Shown here one piece after another: positions 3-36,089 of a DNA stretch of 64,000 bases. The stretch's first letter is position 1, and the number at the start of each line of letters is the position of its first letter. This DNA comes from Pyrobaculum sp. 3827-6 (GTDB lineage Archaea > Thermoproteota > Thermoprotei > Thermoproteales > Thermoproteaceae). The translations under genes and the position numbers were made by a program. The notes under the pieces were generated by a model, which was not told the origin of the DNA, searched no databases, and saw nothing but the letters and a program-made list of their open reading frames with translations. The stretch covers positions 1 through 64,000 of the forward strand of contig NZ_JAOTQN010000002.1 of assembly GCF_025641885.1 (NCBI RefSeq), in the 5' to 3' direction.

Positions 3-3000
3 AGGTACGTGGAGAGGCTGGCGAAGAGGGGCGGCGCGGCGCTGGTGGAGGCGGCCGAGTCCCTCGCCGGCGACGTGTACAGCTTGATATGGCACGCAGT
101 GGACTCGCCGGAGGCCCTCCACTACCTGGCGATACTTCTTGACAGGGCTGAGGACGTGGTCCACGGCATGGAGCCGAGGAGCCCAGTGGAGGCCGATGCG
201 GCTAGGGTCTTCGCGGAGGTTAGGGAGAGGTTTGAGAGAATAAAGGCGGAGCTCGGCGAGGAGCTGGCTGAAGAAGCATGGCGCTACGCCTACGCCGTGG
301 GTAGGGAGGTGATTAAGGCGCTGATCTCAACGCATGAAGGCGCCCTCAAGGCGGTGGCCACTGTTGAGCAGGCTCTTAGGCTGGCGGCGTTCGCCGGGGC
401 GGCCACGGAGTCCCTAATCGCCCTCCACCACGGCCTCTACAGCGAGGCCGTCGTATCCGCAGTCGCCGGCGCGTTGGCGCTTGTGGAGGAGGGCCGCTTC
501 GAGAAGGCTATTGAGTACGTCAGAAAGGCCGCCGAGGCGGCTTACGAAGCTCTGCGGGATGTTTTCGAAAAGGCGAGGGTAGCGCTGGAGAGGCTGTACG
601 AGTTGTTTGTAGAGGCTGTTGCCCGCATAATCGCATGGGTGGATGAGCACAGGGCTTGGCTGTTTTTGGCGGCAGCCGCCTCCGCCGGCGTCGTGACGTG
701 GGCCTTCGCCCACGACGTCTTCGGCTCGGTGCTACTCGGCAAGCTGGCTTTGGCCTCCGGGCTGATTAAATACGGCGAGTTTAAGAAGCCGCCGACGGCG
801 CAAGAACTGGTGGAGGCTGTGAAGAAGAGAAATGAGGCGGTGGGCAATGCGCTTGAGGAGCTGTTTAGCGTTGTGGACAAGCTCTCCAGAGGTGCGGCGG
901 ACGTGGACGAGGCAAGGCTGTTAAGAATCGCTAATCTGCTGGAGGCGGCTAGAGGTGTTAGGGTGCCGTGGCTGGGGCCGGCGGCCGAGGCGCTTAAGTA
1001 CTGGGAGAGTGGTAAGCGTAGCGATGAGGAGAAGAGCGAGTACGCCAAGGCGGCTTTTCTAATTGTGTGGGCTGTGCTTCAGCGCCGCGCCCATGATGTG
1101 TACAAAATGCTTGAGGAGATGTGGAAGGCGAGAGAGGAGGCCGCCGCTGTTTTGAAGCAGGCGCTGGAGGGCAACGACAGAGAGAAGTGGAGGGAGTTCT
1201 ACAACGTACTGAAGAGGCTGGAGGAGGCCGAGGGGGAGGTGTTGAAAATCGCCGGGGAGGTGGCGAGTGAGTTGAACAGAATAGCGGTGAATCTGAGAGC
1301 CGCGGCTGAGAAGAAGGGCGTGAAGGCGCTGGAGGAGGTGGCGGAGTGGGTAGAGGTAGATGCTAGAGAGGCGAGGGAGCTGGCGGAGGCGACTGCTGAT
1401 AGGTTGGCCGTGTTCTCAGGCGTCAGCTACGGCACTAGGGCAGTTGCGTATCTGAGGGCGATTGTAGAGGACAATGCGGTGGGTTTGACTGCGCTGAGGG
1501 CCCTCGCCGCGGAGGACTTGGCTTCGCTTGTGGCTCACACGACTGCTAGAGCGCATGTCAAGTTGCTGAAGAAAGCGCAAAGCGTCAAACGTGGACGGAT
1601 AAGCGAGCTTCCGCCTGAGGAGAGGCTGGCTGTGGAGCTGGGCAGAGCTTTGAGTTACGCAAAGGTGTATGACGAGCTGAGGCCTCTGGCGGAGGCGTTT
1701 GAGAGTGGAGAGGCGAGGGTGGAGAAGACGGAGAAGGAAGGTGTGTATGTCATCTACGCCGGCGGCAGAAAGGCGGTGCTGAAGCTTATGGAGGGCGGCG
1801 GCGCCAAGTTACGAGATGAGTTAACCTACCCGCTTGCTGATAGGATGCTGGAGGAGGCCAAAAGGGCTGTGGAGAAGTACGAGGAGATGCTGAAGAAGGG
1901 CAAGGCGCCTCTGGCCAGCCGCTGGGCTCAAGACGGCTGGCTGTTGAGCGACGCCTTTGTGGAGGAGAGTAGCGAAGAGGGGCGTAGAGTAGTTATGGTA
2001 ACAGCCTCCTTGGAGCAAGTGGTGACGTTCCTCTCAGCCTTCGGCGTGGGGGCGGGGGAGATACACTGGGGAGGCGGCGAGAGGTGGAAGAATGGCATAA
2101 TCTACGTCGACTATTTCGACGTGACTAGCGAGGGGCTGAGGCCTATGTACCGCATTTTGCTATACGGAAAATACGCCGAAGAGGTTTGGGGGAGGCTCTC
2201 CTCGGCGCCTAGCATGTCAGAGAAGGAGAGGAAAGCTGTCGTGGACTTCATAGTCAGCCGCCTAGGCGAAGAGGTTCTGGAGAGGTTGGGCGTCAGCCCG
2301 GAGGAGTTTAGGCGGAAGCTGGAGGGGTGGCTTGGGGAGTGGCCTAACAGAGCACCTAAGATCACCAAGTGGGATAAGGACTCCCGCGTGCTCCACACCT
2401 TAATAGACATCTTTAGAGAGCTGGCGAGAGGCGGGAAGGACGCCGAAGAGCGCGAGGTTGCGAGGAGGCGCGCCGTGGGTATGCTCCTACACGCGGTGCT
2501 GGGCGACGGCTCTGTGTTACGAAATGAGATTATGCTGGCCGTTGGCAAGGGCGACGTGATGTCTGCTGAGGACAAAGCAACACTGTACTACGCGCTACTG
2601 AGGGAGCTGGGGTATCAGCCGAAGATGCGCAAAGCCGAGAGAACAGTCCACATAAAGCTGTACGGCGGGGAGGCGAGGAAGTTCGCCCGGGATGCTCTGC
2701 CGTATCTGGCGGCTCTCGAACGTATGCTTGAAGAGGTGAAGGGCGACGAACAGATTTATTCCAAGGTGGAGAAGCTTATCGACATGGCGAGGGCGGAGAG
2801 GGTCAAGGCGTGGATTAAGGACTTCACTACGGAGGGCAAGATGCCGAGGGCTAGGCTGGTCATAGAGGCGGACGGCGCGGCGGCGGAGTACCAGATAAGC
2901 TTGCGTAAAAACAACGCTGTGAAGCTTCACTTTGGCACAACCAGCCGCGAGGAGGCTGAGCGGAGAGCCGCTGTCCTTAGGGCGGTTGGCGTTAGGGCGG

Positions 3001-3992
3001 AGGTGGAGAAGATCTACGACAAATCTCGCAACCGCGACGTGTGGCGTATAGACGTCTCGACAAACGCGCTGGCCGCCGAGTCTGTGCACGAGGCGGTTAG
3101 GAAGGCGGTGGCGGAGTTCCTTAGGCAGTGCAGAGAGGCCGGGGCCGTCGGAGAGGATACGTACAGACGCTTAGCCGGGAAGTTCGAGAGGGGTGTGCCT
3201 GATTGGAGAGAGGTTAGGTTCTCCGTATGGCTGACAAAAAACGGCGCTGTAGAAGTAGCGTACGAACCCAGCGATCCGGAGTCCTTCAGCAGGGCTGTGG
3301 AGTTTCTGCGGGGACTGGGGATGAGAGACAGCTGTGAGGGGGAGTGGTGCTTTGTCCACTTCACTGCAAGGGAGCCGGAGGGAGGCAGGCAGGGCTTCGT
3401 CCGGATAACGGCGGACGGCCTTAGGTACATCGGCTGGCTCGCCCTACACGGCGAGGGCGAGGCGAGGGAAAAGGCGCAATGGCTGAAGGAAATGTTGCTA
3501 AAGGAAGCCGAGGCGAGGGGAAAGGAGGTGCGTAGGCGGCTGGAGCAGTACTTCCGCGAAGGCGAGATGTGGGGCTCCGTAAAGCCGCCGATAGAGAAGG
3601 AAGTCGAGGTAGAGGGCAGAAGGCTGAAGGTACACGTCGAGGAGGTGGAGGCGTGGAGAGAAAAGGGCAAGAAGAAGGAGCACTTGGTCGTGAGGGTGAG
3701 GGCAAAGGTGTTCGACGGGACCAGCGAAGTAGCGGTGGAGAAAGAGGCCAGGTTCTCCAAAAGCGGCGGCGCGGTCCACGGCTACGTCGTTATACACGCC
3801 GGCGCCGAGGGAGGCCGCGAAGCGGACTATGCGAGGACGGCCGCTGTGCTGAAAAACCTGGGGATAGAGGGGTGGTCAGTCATTAAAGAAGGGGGAAAGC
3901 TGAAAGAGATACGCCTCACCGGAGGCGCCCTAGACGCGTTTATGCGCCTAGAGCCGGTATGCACCGCACTGGGCCAATGCAGAGAAACTTAA
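3..3992 (+). CDS. PaREP2b-family giant protein, 5' end outside window
   Basis: A reading frame of more than 1,300 codons, open to the left edge, so the true start may lie outside; the first in-window start codon is GTG at 9. Residue numbers count from there. The first ~200 residues are charged helices. A hydrophobic stretch at about 215-250 could be a membrane segment. Long helical regions continue to about 560, and the C-terminal half matches the second PaREP2b copy at 32.9-34.5 kb. Around residues 823-840 the segment LLHAVLGDGSV followed by LRELGYQPKM resembles the core of LAGLIDADG endonuclease folds; that is my inference, not family knowledge. PaREP2b proteins are a Pyrobaculum repeat family of unknown function in which many members are broken. 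This copy has no internal stop in view and may be intact. It ends 25 bases before the convergent thiL. Confidence 0.8.
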   Translation, partial: RYVERLAKRGGAALVEAAESLAGDVYSLIWHAVDSPEALHYLAILLDRAEDVVHGMEPRSPVEADAARVFAEVRERFERIKAELGEELAEEAWRYAYAVGREVIKALISTHEGALKAVATVEQALRLAAFAGAATESLIALHHGLYSEAVVSAVAGALALVEEGRFEKAIEYVRKAAEAAYEALRDVFEKARVALERLYELFVEAVARIIAWVDEHRAWLFLAAAASAGVVTWAFAHDVFGSVLLGKLALASGLIKYGEFKKPPTAQELVEAVKKRNEAVGNALEELFSVVDKLSRGAADVDEARLLRIANLLEAARGVRVPWLGPAAEALKYWESGKRSDEEKSEYAKAAFLIVWAVLQRRAHDVYKMLEEMWKAREEAAAVLKQALEGNDREKWREFYNVLKRLEEAEGEVLKIAGEVASELNRIAVNLRAAAEKKGVKALEEVAEWVEVDAREARELAEATADRLAVFSGVSYGTRAVAYLRAIVEDNAVGLTALRALAAEDLASLVAHTTARAHVKLLKKAQSVKRGRISELPPEERLAVELGRALSYAKVYDELRPLAEAFESGEARVEKTEKEGVYVIYAGGRKAVLKLMEGGGAKLRDELTYPLADRMLEEAKRAVEKYEEMLKKGKAPLASRWAQDGWLLSDAFVEESSEEGRRVVMVTASLEQVVTFLSAFGVGAGEIHWGGGERWKNGIIYVDYFDVTSEGLRPMYRILLYGKYAEEVWGRLSSAPSMSEKERKAVVDFIVSRLGEEVLERLGVSPEEFRRKLEGWLGEWPNRAPKITKWDKDSRVLHTLIDIFRELARGGKDAEEREVARRRAVGMLLHAVLGDGSVLRNEIMLAVGKGDVMSAEDKATLYYALLRELGYQPKMRKAERTVHIKLYGGEARKFARDALPYLAALERMLEEVKGDEQIYSKVEKLIDMARAERVKAWIKDFTTEGKMPRARLVIEADGAAAEYQISLRKNNAVKLHFGTTSREEAERRAAVLRAVGVRAEVEKIYDKSRNRDVWRIDVSTNALAAESVHEAVRKAVAEFLRQCREAGAVGEDTYRRLAGKFERGVPDWREVRFSVWLTKNGAVEVAYEPSDPESFSRAVEFLRGLGMRDSCEGEWCFVHFTAREPEGGRQGFVRITADGLRYIGWLALHGEGEAREKAQWLKEMLLKEAEARGKEVRRRLEQYFREGEMWGSVKPPIEKEVEVEGRRLKVHVEEVEAWREKGKKKEHLVVRVRAKVFDGTSEVAVEKEARFSKSGGAVHGYVVIHAGAEGGREADYARTAAVLKNLGIEGWSVIKEGGKLKEIRLTGGALDAFMRLEPVCTALGQCRET

Positions 3993-4017: not shown

Positions 4018-4872
4018 CTATGGCCTCCTGAAGTACGCCCAGCCCCGCCACCTCAGCAACTCTCCTCTCCACCAGACGTGGCCGCTCCCCTCTGCCACGT
4101 AGGCAAACGCCACGTACGGCGGCTCTACGCGGCACCGTGGCTCCACGGCGAAGACGGGGAGGAACTCCTCGCCGCCGTTGAACACAAGCTCCTCTAAAGA
4201 GAGGCCGTGGGACGCGGCGAATTCCCTAACCTCCTCTGTAGTTGGCAACTCCTTTACCACTATGTCGACGCCCTGCGCCATGGTCCACAACACGTCTGCG
4301 AGCCCGTCGGAGGAGTCCATGCTGGCGGTGACGCAGTCAGCCGGGGGGAGCGGCCAATCGGGGGCGGGCCTTCTGAGGATCTCCACCCCCCTCCTCGCCG
4401 TCGGGTGGTCCAAGTGCCAGAATCTGTAGGCGATGGCGGTGTAGCCGAATTCTGGTATTGTAATAAGCAGGTTACCTGGCTGGGGGACCCTCCCCAGCCT
4501 GCGGCGGGGGATGCCCACAACGGCGACGTCTACCACCACGTCACCTCCTTGGTTCAAGTCCCCGCCTATGTAGGCCACTGAGAAGCGGCGCGCCGCCTCT
4601 CTTACGCCTTCGATAACTTCAGAGGCTATGTCGAGGCTGGGGGCCGTGACCGAGGCCGCGAGGTGGCGGGGCTCGGCATACTTCACCCTGAGGTCGCTGA
4701 CGGCGGCTGCCACGTTGCGCCAGCCGAAGTCGCTCCACGTCTGGAAGGGGAGTTTTGAGGTGGAGGCCGCGGAGCCGTCTATTTTAAGCACCACCCCGTT
4801 TAGGTACGCGACGTCGTTGTCCTCTACCCCCAGCTCCTGTTGGAGGCGCTTGAGAAAGCTCTTCTCGTCCAC
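4018..4872 (-). CDS. thiL: Thiamine-monophosphate kinase ThiL
   Basis: ThiL phosphorylates thiamine monophosphate to thiamine diphosphate with ATP, the last step of cofactor synthesis. The protein has the AIR-synthase/ThiL fold. An Asp-rich nucleotide and metal site is seen in GGDLNQGG (about residue 100) and in ASMDSSDGLADVL (about residues 185-197), followed by the C-terminal GGEEFLPVF typical of ThiL. At 284 residues it is slightly shorter than bacterial ThiL, and the N-terminal GEDAA-type motif is degenerate (LKIDGSAAS). The GTG start at 4872 lies three bases after the stop of the winged-helix gene upstream, so the two are cotranscribed. A YjbQ-type gene just upstream fits a thiamine context. 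Confidence 0.85.
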   Translation of the reverse strand: MDEKSFLKRLQQELGVEDNDVAYLNGVVLKIDGSAASTSKLPFQTWSDFGWRNVAAAVSDLRVKYAEPRHLAASVTAPSLDIASEVIEGVREAARRFSVAYIGGDLNQGGDVVVDVAVVGIPRRRLGRVPQPGNLLITIPEFGYTAIAYRFWHLDHPTARRGVEILRRPAPDWPLPPADCVTASMDSSDGLADVLWTMAQGVDIVVKELPTTEEVREFAASHGLSLEELVFNGGEEFLPVFAVEPRCRVEPPYVAFAYVAEGSGHVWWRGELLRWRGWAYFRRP

Positions 4873-32723: not shown

Positions 32724-32744
32724 GGGCCGCCGCGTCTACTGAGT

Positions 32745-32842
32745 TAACATTTATAGATTGACGGGTTGTGGCCCCGATTCCCGAGGACGTGTTCCCAGAT
32801 CTCGTGACGCGGCTTAAAGAGGCTGGGGTGAGAGATGTGTAA
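32745..32842 (+). pseudogene. hisG deletion remnant (promoter plus C-terminal end)
   Basis: An ATTTATAGATTGACGGGTTG promoter-like segment matches the hisG upstream region at 35194-35213 (TTTATAAATCGACAGGTTG). It is fused directly to a copy of the hisG 3' end: frame GTG 32768 to TAA 32840 encodes PEDVFPDLVTRLKEAGVRD, against PEDVLPDLVMRLKEAGARD in HisG. At the DNA level CCCAGATCTCGTGA and GCGGCTTAAAGAGGC are exact. About 760 bases of gene body are missing. It is a decayed duplicate, not expected to be functional. Confidence 0.85.
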
Positions 32843-32871: not shown

Positions 32872-34550
32872 TTAGCTACGGCGGCATATGCCCAGGGCGG
32901 CGCACAACGGCTCTAGGCGCATGAGGGTGTCTAGGGCGCCTCTGGTGAGTTGTATCTGTTTTGGCTTTCCGCTCCACTTGTCTACGCCGAGGGTTTTCAG
33001 CACGGCGGCTGTCCTTAGGTAGTCTGCCTCGCGTCCGCCCTCTGCGTTGGCGTGTATGTTGACGTAGCCACGAATCTCGTTGCCGCTGGTTTTGTAAAAC
33101 CTGGCCTCTTTCTCTACTGCTACTTCGCTGTTCCCCTCAACTACTTTTGCCTTTATCTTCACGACTAGGTGCTCCCTTGTCTCTCTTTGCTCTCTCCACG
33201 CCTCTACCTCCTCTATACGCACTCTCAGCCGCCTGCCCTCCACCTCCACCTCTCTCTCAATGGGCGGCTTCACAGAGCCCCACTGCTCCCCCTCGCGGAG
33301 GTACTGCTCAAGACGCTGGCGCACCTCCCCTCCCTTCCTCTCTGCCTCCCTTAGGAGCATGTCCCTCAGCCGCTGGGCCTTCTCCCTCACCTCGCCTTCG
33401 CCGTGTAGGGCGAGCCACCCGATGTACTTAAGTCCGTCTACGGTAATGCGCACGTAGCCGGGCCTGCCGCCCTCCGGCTCCCTAGCCGTGAAGTGGACGA
33501 AGCACCACTCCCCTTCGCAACCGTCCCGCATGCCCAGATCCCGTAGGAAGTTTACCACTCGCTCGAAGGACTGGGGGTCGCTGGGTTCGTGAATTACTTC
33601 TACAATGCCGTCTTTTTTCAGCGCCACGGAGAACCTTACGTTGCCCCACTCCGGCACTCCCTTCTCTAATTTCTTGACTAGGCGGCTGTATGTCTCCTCT
33701 CCGAGGACGCCAGCCTCTCTACACCTCTCCAAAAACTCAGCCACGGCTTTTCTAACCGCCTCGTGCACCGACTCGGCGGCCAGCGCATTGGTGGTCACGG
33801 CTATGTACCACTCGTCGCGGTTGCGAGATTTGTGGTGACGTTTAAATACCTCCGCCTTTACGCCTACAGCCCTCAGCACCGCCGCCCTCCGCTCAGCCTC
33901 GGCGCGGTCGGTGGTGTCGAAGCGGAGTTCCACTTTTATTGTTTTCATCAAGGCGTATTGCATATTCCGCCGCTACGCCGTCAGCTTCGACGATCAGCCT
34001 AGCCCTCGGCCTCCCGCCCTCTGCGGTGAATCCCTCCACCCGCGCCTTCACCTTCTCTGCCTTGGCCATGTCAATAAGCTTTTCCACCTTTGAATAAATC
34101 TGTTCGTCGCTCTTCACCACCTCAAGCATACGCTCAAGAGCCGCCAGATACGGCAGAGCCTCCCGGGCGAACCTCCTCGCCTCCCCGCCGTACAGCCTTA
34201 TGTAGACTGCTCTCTCGGCTTTTGTCATCTTCGGCTGGTACCCCAGCTCCCTCAGCAACGCGTAGTAGAGGTCGGCCTTGACCTCAGCCGGCACCTCATC
34301 CTCCTCCCCGCCGCCGACGGCCAGCACAACCTCATTCGCCGTCACAGTCCCGTCCCCCAGCACTGCGTGTAGGAGCATACCCACGACGCGTCTCCTCGCA
34401 ACCCCGCGCTTTCCAGCATCTTCTTCGCTCTGCGCCAGCTCTCTCAAGGAGTTCACAAGGGTGTGGAACACCCGGTGTTGCTTTAAGCCCGGCGCCTTTG
34501 CAAGCCACTCACCCAGCCACCTCTCCAACCTCTCTCTAGACGCCGCGCGC
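32872..34550 (-). pseudogene. PaREP2b fragment, 5'-truncated and frameshifted
   Basis: Homologous to about residues 770-1327 of the large PaREP2b protein at the left edge. It covers the LLHAVLGDGTV and LRELGYQPKM region, then, in a different frame from about 33950, RAAVLRAVGVKAEVFK and the C-terminal block through RLEPLCAALG. The first frame runs 33893-34528 and ends in RRG after the shift; the second runs 32872-33963. The N-terminal ~770 residues are absent and no promoter is visible upstream. PaREP2b copies are often decayed in Pyrobaculum. Confidence 0.88.
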
Positions 34551-35190
34551 CGGGCCGCGTCGCTGAGTGCTCCAAACGTCTTGGCGCGGGGTCTTCAAGA
34601 CATCGGCGCCGCGGCCTCTAGAAGCTTTTGTGGAGTGGCTTTCCTCGATTTCGCCTAGGGGTTCTGCGTCTAGAGTGTATGATCTGTGGAGGCGCCGGCT
34701 CGTGCAGAGGGGCGACACGCGGCGCGGTGAAGTGGGCCGTCGATAGAGGCCTCGTGGTAGGTGTGGCGGAGTTGGCCAGCGGCTGGCTCAGCCAGCCAGC
34801 TCTGAAAGCCGCCGTCTCGACGTACAAGGCGGTGGTGGAGGGCGGGAGCTGTGAGTCGAGAGGAGAAGAGGAGCGTTAAAACTCCACAAAGATATGTGCG
34901 CCGCAGACGCCGAGAAGCGGCTGAAAGACGCCGGGCGGCGCGCCGGAGGGCTGGGCGAACTCCGATATACGGGTGTTGGGCTGTAGTCTGCCTCGCCGCT
35001 GTGGGTTGCTACAGGCGACTGCAGAAGCCCATATGCTGGCGTAGCGGCGGCTTGCGCCAACCCCCGCACGCCGCCTCAGAAGCGGGCTCTCCGCTACTTG
35101 CGTTTTGCGCCCCGGCTCCATCCCCGGTTTACACCACGGCGGCGAACGCCGGGTTTTTCGCCGTGTAAACAGAGCCGCCGCGGCTCTCGG
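34551..35190. other. Non-coding or decayed stretch before hisG
   Basis: About 640 bases between the PaREP2b fragment and the hisG promoter. A short frame at about 34676-34879 reads GAVKWAVDRGLVVGVAEL and looks coding-like, but has no start, promoter or family. The region ends in two hairpins just before the hisG TATA. Probably debris of former genes. Confidence 0.4.
35127..35187. other. Two adjacent hairpins upstream of hisG
   Basis: GTTTACAC (35127-35134) pairs with GTGTAAAC (35163-35170), enclosing a nested stem CGGCG/CGCCG and a T run. Directly after it AGAGCCG (35171-35177) pairs with CGGCTCT (35181-35187). They lie immediately upstream of the hisG TATA, so before the transcript starts; a DNA-level protein site or an old terminator are possible. 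Confidence 0.45.
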
Positions 35191-35196
35191 GCTAAT

Positions 35197-35206
35197 GTTT
35201 ATAAAT
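35197..35206 (+). promoter_or_regulatory. hisG TATA
   Basis: GTTTATAAAT precedes the hisG ATG (35241) by about 39 bases, leaving a short leader of roughly a dozen bases rather than a leaderless message. A related copy (ATTTATAG) stands before the hisG remnant. Confidence 0.55.
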
Positions 35207-35240
35207 CGACAGGTTGCGGCCTCTATGGATAACCCTCCCC

Positions 35241-36089
35241 ATGCTTCTGGCGGTTCCTAGCAAGGGCAGGCTTCAGGAACCTACGCTGAAGCTTCTCGAG
35301 GCTGTCGGCATCAGGCCGCTGGCTTCGGACGAGAGGGCGCTGGTGGTGCCCACCTCGTGGAGTGGGGTAAATCTCATACGGGCCAGGCCCGAGGACATAC
35401 CGTACCTCGTCGAAAGCGGGAGGGTATGGGCTGGCGTGACTGGACACGACTACGTTGTGGAGTCCGGCTCCAACGTAGTTGAGGCCCTCGACTTAGAGTT
35501 CGGGAGGGGGAAGTTGGTGGTTGCGGTTCTGAAATCCAGCGGCGTGTCTACCGTCGAGGAGCTACCACCCGGGGCCCGGGTGGCTACCAAGTTCGTCAAC
35601 ATTGCCTACAACTACTTCGCAGAGCTGGGGAAGAGAGTCCGCATAGTCAGAGTGACGGGGTCCGTTGAGGTGTTGCCGCAGCTCGGCATCGCGGATGCCA
35701 TACTAGACGTGATGGCGACCGGCACCACTCTGGAGGTGCACGGGCTGAGGCCGATAGCCACCGTGCTCGAGACCTCGGCGAGGCTCGTGGTAAACCCCCG
35801 CTACGTGGAGCACGAGCTGACGAAGAAGCTCGTCACATTCATAAGGGGGTACTACGCGGCTCAGGGCAGGAAGATGGTGTTTCTAAACGTCCCCGCGGAC
35901 AAGCTAGAGGCTGTGTTGGCGGTGCTCCCGGCGATGGAGGCCCCCAGCGTGACGAAGCTCGCCAAGGGCGACATTTACGAAGTCTTTTCCGTAGTCCCCG
36001 AAGATGTACTCCCAGATCTCGTGATGCGGCTTAAAGAGGCGGGGGCAAGAGACATAGTCATAACCCCCATAGAAAAGTTAATAGCGTAG
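35241..36089 (+). CDS. hisG: ATP phosphoribosyltransferase HisG, long form
   Basis: First and committed step of histidine synthesis, joining ATP and PRPP. About 282 residues, the long form with a C-terminal ACT-like regulatory domain (KGDIYEVFSVVPEDVLPDL onward), so histidine feedback and no HisZ subunit are expected. Catalytic-domain motifs are LAVPSKGRLQ at the N-terminus, VWAGVTGHDYV (about 56-66) and the PRPP loop LDVMATGTTLEVHGL (about 153-167). ATG 35241 is chosen because it gives the normal HisG N-terminus; a TTG at 35214 would add nine atypical residues. Confidence 0.94.
   Translation: MLLAVPSKGRLQEPTLKLLEAVGIRPLASDERALVVPTSWSGVNLIRARPEDIPYLVESGRVWAGVTGHDYVVESGSNVVEALDLEFGRGKLVVAVLKSSGVSTVEELPPGARVATKFVNIAYNYFAELGKRVRIVRVTGSVEVLPQLGIADAILDVMATGTTLEVHGLRPIATVLETSARLVVNPRYVEHELTKKLVTFIRGYYAAQGRKMVFLNVPADKLEAVLAVLPAMEAPSVTKLAKGDIYEVFSVVPEDVLPDLVMRLKEAGARDIVITPIEKLIA

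Follow-up and report, generated by a model that had tools for sequence, protein, structure and literature searches.

We report on the PaREP2b gene that opens a 64,000-nucleotide stretch of Pyrobaculum sp. 3827-6 (contig NZ_JAOTQN010000002.1, positions 1 to 64,000; hereafter the window). On balance, we consider it likely that the PaREP2b protein carries a double-motif LAGLIDADG domain that acts as a metal-dependent DNA endonuclease and cuts targets for the insertion of its element. Computational analysis revealed LAGLIDADG homology, a predicted pseudo-dimer, two invariant Asp residues, the structure of the element, empty insertion sites, some flanking direct repeats and some adjacency to tRNA genes. 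The domain would cleave DNA, and cleavage would be the cause of insertion.

PaREP2b has been named a putative transposon (PMC3558965), and the word LAGLIDADG is absent from the main text of that paper. The available portion of PMC2701414 discusses paREP1 and paREP6, and neither "LAGLIDADG" nor "paREP" occurs in that of PMC4158269. Literature on LAGLIDADG, Pyrobaculum and homing endonucleases concerned rRNA introns and a genome method; within the literature searched, the LAGLIDADG assignment of PaREP2b was not found. A DNA-exchange system of Thermoproteales linked with HerA is described in the available text of PMC9905601, and is relevant to the HerA-like protein of the element discussed below.

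The PaREP2b gene occupies positions 9-3992 on the plus strand, as an open reading frame (ORF) of 1329 amino acids (aa) that runs to the contig edge. Because this frame is open up to the contig start, its N-terminal end is cut and the protein is probably the C-terminal portion of a longer, giant one; relatives in a one-contig genome have open frames of 4633-4725 aa. L068 and L069 of a related genome (G003; the window's own genome is G000, and L-numbers denote loci) have open frames of 4633-4725 aa. L071 has one of 4677 aa, and some of these frames begin with hydrophobic, membrane-like stretches.

A preliminary description of the window had proposed a LAGLIDADG half-domain within PaREP2b. The residues on which it relied lie where it placed them: the segment beginning MLLHAVLGDG starts at residue 825 (position 2481), LRELGYQPKM at 2598 and VHIKLYGG at 2646, and together these residues span 2481-2700. 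The half-domain itself was correctly recognized (P2, residues 812-932, 2442-2804, plus strand, as are all features of this gene; motif LLHAVLGDGSV), and is supported by conservation, models and profile-profile comparison. What the description overlooked was a first half-domain about 185 residues upstream (P1, residues 633-730, 1905-2198; motif GWLLSDAFV), supported by alignment, model and structural matches. Nor did it notice that the contig edge truncates the gene and that a large element surrounds it. From conservation, the predicted metal-binding acids are Asp648 in P1 (1950-1952) and Asp833 of the Gly-Asp-Gly (GDG) motif in P2 (2505-2507); P2 also contains a conserved Lys919 (2763-2765). 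By its Pfam match (PF07775, E 3.7e-16), the window gene belongs to the paREP2 family of Pyrobaculum. That match covers 2745-3383 and begins past most of P2, and the LAGLIDADG halves lie upstream of it.

Conservation of the GDG Asp, on which the proposal depended, was complete in three overlapping sets (28/28, 56/56 and 41/41 sequences). The first alignment (A1) comprised 28 sequences including the window and omitted eight matching ORFs whose phmmer match started after position 100 (two of these, L066 and L083, were later shown to have the core). Nine of its columns were invariant, including the Asp and Gly of GDG and Lys919. More distant members were recruited by a core profile into a second alignment (A2; 57 matches minus two L064 fragments, plus the window, giving 56 core sequences). 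Here mean column identity was 23%, and Asp833 and Gly834 were the only invariant columns, a LAGLIDADG signal beyond chance. The residue preceding the Asp is mostly Gly, with Tyr or Phe in some members, and the motif is followed by a strand, a helix, two strands and a helix. Lys919 is invariant in A1 (28/28) and in a third alignment (A3, 50/50; 54 matches minus L095, L117, L128, L129 and L130, plus the window) and is kept in 90% or more of A2 and of the fourth alignment (A4) described below. It falls near position 98-99 of I-CreI, as counted from the ends of structural-alignment ranges rather than from coordinates.

The upstream motif came to light through relatives from other parts of the order; these proteins, about 500 residues long, have an additional upstream motif, GLLLTDGSI. 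With upstream regions aligned, its counterparts are GWLLSDAFV in the window protein, LAGLLATDVTF in L067 and L100, and LALLATDGSY in L108. A motif helix ending in an acidic residue occurs twice, the Asp being present in 40/41 sequences in P1 (the exception, L075, has its upstream stretch out of frame) and in 41/41 in P2. When these sequences, except L075 and L081, were aligned afresh (A4, 39 sequences), the only invariant columns were D59, D244 and G245, i.e., Asp648, Asp833 and Gly834. Nine PaREP2b copies are under purifying selection, with a median ratio of nonsynonymous to synonymous substitution rates of 0.25 over 36 pairs (P2 core 0.31, range 0.18-0.55). In two loci, L129 and L130, 560-aa open frames contain both LAGLIDADG halves and stop immediately behind P2; a same-strand tRNA gene lies about 200 bp further on.

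Significant sequence-profile similarity to LAGLIDADG proteins was found for relatives of the window protein (L075, L167 and the profile-profile comparison), the window protein alone being below the cut-off. Two of the 56 A2 sequences matched the Pfam family LAGLIDADG_3 (PF14528) at E up to 1, L075 (E 7.9e-5) alone above the cut-off; of the 39 A4 sequences, four matched (best E 5.1e-4). In a search of 45 genomes of the order, L075 was again over the cut-off among PaREP2b copies and four others were below it (E 0.0016-0.009), three of these matching at a third unit (E 0.0016-0.0058). The profile-profile check that the preliminary description had called for was positive: hhalign aligned the P2 core with 14 LAGLIDADG_3 sequences from the same order with a probability of 91.5% (E 8.5e-7), and reversing either profile reduced this to 0.2%. 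These 14 were taken from 25 listed loci, leaving out the bridging locus L161 and loci in the wrong frame or strand.

Judged by sequence, the strongest link to LAGLIDADG is a bridging protein, a 547-residue open frame in G003 (L167:1243-2883). It matches LAGLIDADG_3 over the cut-off (E 5.6e-9), the profile of the two-motif family with 95 bits (independent E-value 1e-27 at Z 5000) and the PaREP2b tail of A1 (independent E-value 1e-16); its Pfam PaRep2b score of 14.6 bits is below the cut-off of 20.4. Its motifs are LLGWLASDAYI and FMLGLIEGDGHV, and the corresponding locus in G000 is split over two frames. The predicted assignment of P1 rests on the fold, the invariant Asp and this protein. Separately, three genomes of the genus have open frames of about 1250 aa with strong LAGLIDADG_3 matches (79-86 bits; L137, L139 and L140, 1456-1899).

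Other databases yielded less. NCBIfam and PHROGs gave no LAGLIDADG match for the window protein or a decayed copy of the gene (lowest E 0.0021). Searches of PDB sequences with A1 and A4 returned designed proteins and other chance matches, and a search there with just the bridging protein retrieved no LAGLIDADG chain. Among viral contigs, 14 pattern matches included no relative, and three weak matches in phage records (E 0.2) were judged to be chance.

Structure prediction, also proposed in the preliminary description, yielded the LAGLIDADG fold rather than a different one. An AlphaFold2 model of the C-terminal 563 residues, built from 28 sequences, had a predicted local distance difference test score (pLDDT) of 84 and a predicted template modelling score (pTM) of 0.51, and its residues 48-146 follow the order helix-strand-strand-helix-strand-strand-helix. 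In VIA-align, all 50 matches listed for this model have the LAGLIDADG fold, on model residues 30-166, including I-CvuI (Z 9.9, 2.4 Å over 91 residues), I-CreI (Z 9.4), I-DmoI (Z 8.8) and WhiA (Z 8.7). In Foldseek, the first eight PDB rows are LAGLIDADG proteins, headed by the bI3 maturase (E 5.8e-4). This ranking, together with the position of some copies ahead of tRNA genes, would suit a maturase-type LAGLIDADG protein that acts on RNA, for example on introns of adjoining tRNA transcripts. We regard such a role as very improbable, since copies also lie at thiL and hisG, which are not tRNA sites, and 29/36 gene ends among the matches listed have no same-strand tRNA gene within 70 bp downstream.

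A second AlphaFold2 model, covering both halves (residues 590-934, 39 sequences), had a pLDDT of 90.5 and a pTM of 0.90. In this predicted model the two halves form alpha-beta-beta-alpha-beta-beta-alpha half-domains packed as a pseudo-dimer, and a helical linker of roughly 80 residues separates P1 from P2. Again 50/50 VIA-align matches listed have the LAGLIDADG fold, each spanning both halves by its first and last residue; they include PI-PfuI (Z 12.6), I-Tsp061I (Z 12.1, 180/204 residues), WhiA (Z 11.9), I-SceI (Z 11.9) and I-DmoI (Z 11.3, 3.1 Å, 164/183 residues). Counted from the start of the VIA ranges on the assumption of no gap, Asp833 corresponds to residue 20 of I-CreI and Asp648 to residue 21 of I-DmoI (row 4un7_G), both of which we take to be catalytic (for I-CreI, a PDB entry title reads "I-CreI(D20N)").

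These comparisons place PaREP2b beside several known systems. The archaeal intron-encoded endonucleases I-Tsp061I and I-DmoI are, like PaREP2b, double-motif pseudo-dimers and were aligned over nearly their whole length, whereas the PaREP2b domain sits in a giant protein with a tail and a linker, at the end of a large element and, as far as seen, not in an intron. Both motif acids of PaREP2b are Asp; the second motif of I-DmoI carries Glu117. The intein endonucleases PI-PfuI, PI-SceI and TliVMA share the fold over both halves, but their context differs: a Pfam scan of the window protein shows no intein splicing domain.

The PaREP2b gene closes a large element on the right, as its last gene. An NTPase (nucleoside triphosphatase) of about 1390 residues is common to five stretches: A, B and C in G003 and D and F in G000. 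A, B, C and F are collinear over the interval between this NTPase and the giant gene, with intervening proteins of 659, about 268, 328, 309, 224 and 345 residues (sizes in A). D is cut by a contig end, the giant gene of F is cut by a contig start, and that of B lies in two frames. The opposite end is marked by a repeat, R; both R and the gene end could be identified in A and B, at distances of about 53 kb and about 42 kb, respectively, and for C no left end was found. Pfam matches over the cut-off mark the 659-residue protein of A as HerA-like (DUF87, 50 bits) and its 345-residue protein as RadA-like (Rad51, E 1.1e-20); the 309-residue protein matches AAA_22 just above the cut-off and TrwB below it. 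The first 3000 residues of one giant protein gave no Pfam match at E 0.01, and two other giants, as scanned, none over the cut-off. The left parts of B and D encode an SNF2 helicase, a DNA methylase, which in B lies in two frames, and a DUF499 ATPase; in D these three score as HmaA, HmaB and HmaC in PADLOC, and A has distant relatives (28-32%) of the helicase and methylase. HmaABC-like defence genes lie between R and the NTPase at 4018-12288 of L183 (G000:C4:176000-195999) and at 3587-11865 of L203 (G003:C1:247000-266999).

With defence cargo and recombination proteins in one element, the domain might be an active endonuclease used in competition or defence, cutting rivals or empty sites (exclusion), while other machinery, for instance the HerA- and RadA-like proteins, carries out insertion; sites without the element are the typical targets of LAGLIDADG enzymes, which would suit such a role. 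We find this quite unlikely: the gene lies next to the junction, at the extreme end of the element, and that end is retained in short derivatives.

A tyrosine integrase (PF00589, E up to 0.01) was found neither in G003 nor in the element stretches fetched, serine recombinases and transposases not having been searched for; G000 has three matches, on C1 at 672-728 kb, outside those stretches. An element-encoded tyrosine recombinase, as in tRNA-targeting integrative elements with a tyrosine integrase, is not among the genes detected. Archaeal elements inserted at tRNA genes resemble those of PaREP2b in being large islands, with direct repeats and tRNA adjacency at some copies, and differ in the integrase, in their targets and in the long repeats (43-88 bp) of PaREP2b.

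Two copies could be compared with empty sites in G003. Copy 1 is the gene described above. Its thiL flank starts at 4019, where a direct repeat (thiL 3' end, 4019-4082, plus strand) is 92% identical over 64 bp to G000:C4:177031-177094. This left repeat, on another contig, stands directly beside an R repeat, and in G003 the C4 sequence before it runs on into the thiL flank; the two G000 contigs would then hold the two ends of one element. Copy 2, the decayed copy on the minus strand, was said in the preliminary description to keep the LAGLIDADG pattern, and it does: an ORF at 33893-34528 contains the decayed P2 half-domain, with the GDG Asp at 34352-34354. The PaREP2b tail follows in a different frame (32872-33963), and repeat R at 34541-35170, also on the minus strand, forms the opposite end of this short element. 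The flanking direct repeats, 32726-32773 on the hisC side and 35174-35221 on the hisG side, are 75% identical over 48 bp, and the repeat is single in G003. There the hisC and hisG flanks abut, overlapping by 56 bp; in the window they lie about 2.4 kb apart. Just past the end of copy 2, positions 32780-32835 repeat the 3' part of hisG (35997-36052; 85.7% over 56 bp); one insertion event would not account for this.

Short copies frequently carry repeat R on the upstream side of their PaREP2b end (6/9 other loci tested, 27 bp only in L063). They look as if they were elements with a deleted middle that kept only both ends, window copy 2 being one such. In L064, a direct repeat of 88 bp (98.9%; 725-812 and 3114-3201) places a tRNA gene on both sides of the PaREP2b copy; the second tRNA copy is different in roughly its first 12 bases, and the Rfam tRNA matches do not include it. 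The direct repeat of L063 is 43 bp at 90.7%. A 70% match at L136 was not counted, as it joins the ends of two neighbouring copies.

Adjacency to tRNA genes exceeds expectation. Of 36 gene ends among the matches listed that reach model position 530 (18 in each of G000 and G003), seven have a same-strand tRNA gene 26-60 bp past the gene end, against 0.02 expected. Copies common to the two genomes were counted twice, and therefore fewer than seven of these ends may be independent. This Rfam-based count omits gene-end fragments such as those on G000:C1 near 912694 and 1315986, each beside a tRNA gene too. It was used in place of an ARAGORN scan, in which 10/61 gene ends had a tRNA between 300 bp ahead of the stop and 700 bp past it, some of these tRNAs being distant or in inverted orientation.

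Several results weigh against the reading of PaREP2b as an insertion endonuclease. The LAGLIDADG_3 match of the window protein itself is sub-threshold (Pfam E 0.059) and lies away from GDG, at residues 964-1019, a possible third LAGLIDADG-like stretch without a motif helix (2898-3065, plus strand). The profile-profile signal of P1 is weak, at 16% against LAGLIDADG_3 and 9.8% against P2, with which it aligned at the motif. Sequence profiles reached I-DmoI in the PDB only at E 0.3, and A4 found mostly helical chance matches there. For the two-half model, Foldseek E-values are weak: none is at 0.001 or below, a phytochrome ranks first and the best LAGLIDADG row has 0.023; the best TM-score to target among the matches listed is 0.56 (I-DmoI). 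VIA itself warns that helix-rich models can reach a Z of about 13 without true kinship. A phage tail-completion/Neck1 (neck protein) family of PHROGs matches the P2 piece at E 0.0021, and PDDEXK_10 does so at E 0.14. Weak matches to such unlike families might be expected of a different fold with a GDG helix and a chance resemblance. This explanation is already largely refuted by the high-confidence model, the uniform structural matches, the reversed-profile controls and the bridging protein, and we consider it highly improbable.

WhiA, a bacterial transcription factor of the LAGLIDADG fold that has lost the catalytic acids, is a non-cleaving relative, and its Z of 11.9 with the two-half model is as high as that of most nucleases. 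It also ranks among them with the C-terminal model, and the LAGLIDADG domain makes up little of a giant protein in whose scanned parts no Pfam domain is over the cut-off. The PaREP2b domain might then bind DNA without cutting it, as an accessory or regulator at element ends, tRNA genes or replication sites. This we consider unlikely: both PaREP2b motif acids are invariant at about 20% mean column identity, together with a conserved Lys, whereas WhiA is without these acids.

Insertion sites supply the remaining objections. Direct repeats were counted in 3/11 short-copy tests (L064, at one of two ends; L063; window copy 2); the others gave none, some loci having little flank. None of three tests of the long G003 elements gave a direct repeat, the left end of C being unlocated. 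The targets also differ (tRNA genes, thiL, hisG); no shared sequence emerged among them, the insertion sites not having been aligned as a whole, and a strict homing endonuclease would have one.

On the reading of PaREP2b as an endonuclease, the protein would consist, near the C-terminus of a giant chain (about 4.7 kaa if intact), of two half-domains, each motif helix ending in Asp, packed as a pseudo-dimer and followed by a PaREP2b-specific tail. Its gene would be the last in an integrated element that measures about 42-53 kb and also encodes HerA-like, RadA-like and AAA NTPases and variable cargo. The protein would cut a target, often a tRNA gene; the RadA- and HerA-like proteins of the element may assist insertion during repair, which would leave a flanking direct repeat of some 40-90 bp. 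Short copies would retain just the two element ends, and many would decay. LAGLIDADG enzymes leave 4-base overhangs, and therefore repeats of 40-90 bp need two spaced nicks or repair synthesis, a step that this scheme leaves unexplained. The suggestion in the preliminary description that nuclease activity accounts for the spread of PaREP2b is plausible, given the empty sites, the direct repeats and the lack of a tyrosine integrase match in the element stretches fetched.

More tentatively, and with some doubt, these islands may represent a new class of large integrative element, in which a LAGLIDADG domain on a giant protein selects targets, RadA- and HerA-like proteins replace the integrase, insertion occurs in tRNA genes and other sites, antiviral cargo is carried and end-only derivatives are shed. 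The host genome has 17 PaRep2b (PF07775) matches and 26 matches to the C-terminal 563 residues of the window protein. A match is present in 10/19 genomes searched within the family, and the two-motif profile matches in 26/398 genomes of the phylum, from 9/163 genera. Contigs C1, C2, C3 and C5 of G000 end within PaREP2b giant genes; the assembly was therefore probably broken at the repeats, and the count of elements is uncertain.

If the reading of PaREP2b as an insertion endonuclease is correct, a family that had been left as a putative transposon gains a testable biochemical identity and is tied to islands that measure about 42-53 kb and carry defence genes. It would also put a nuclease-based mechanism of insertion on offer for elements in which no tyrosine integrase was detected. 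On the more tentative view of a new class of element, attack on tRNA genes might be among the selective pressures behind the abundance of tRNA introns in Thermoproteales. A possible influence of tRNA-targeting mobile elements on the tRNA genes of these archaea, which are rich in introns, becomes directly testable.

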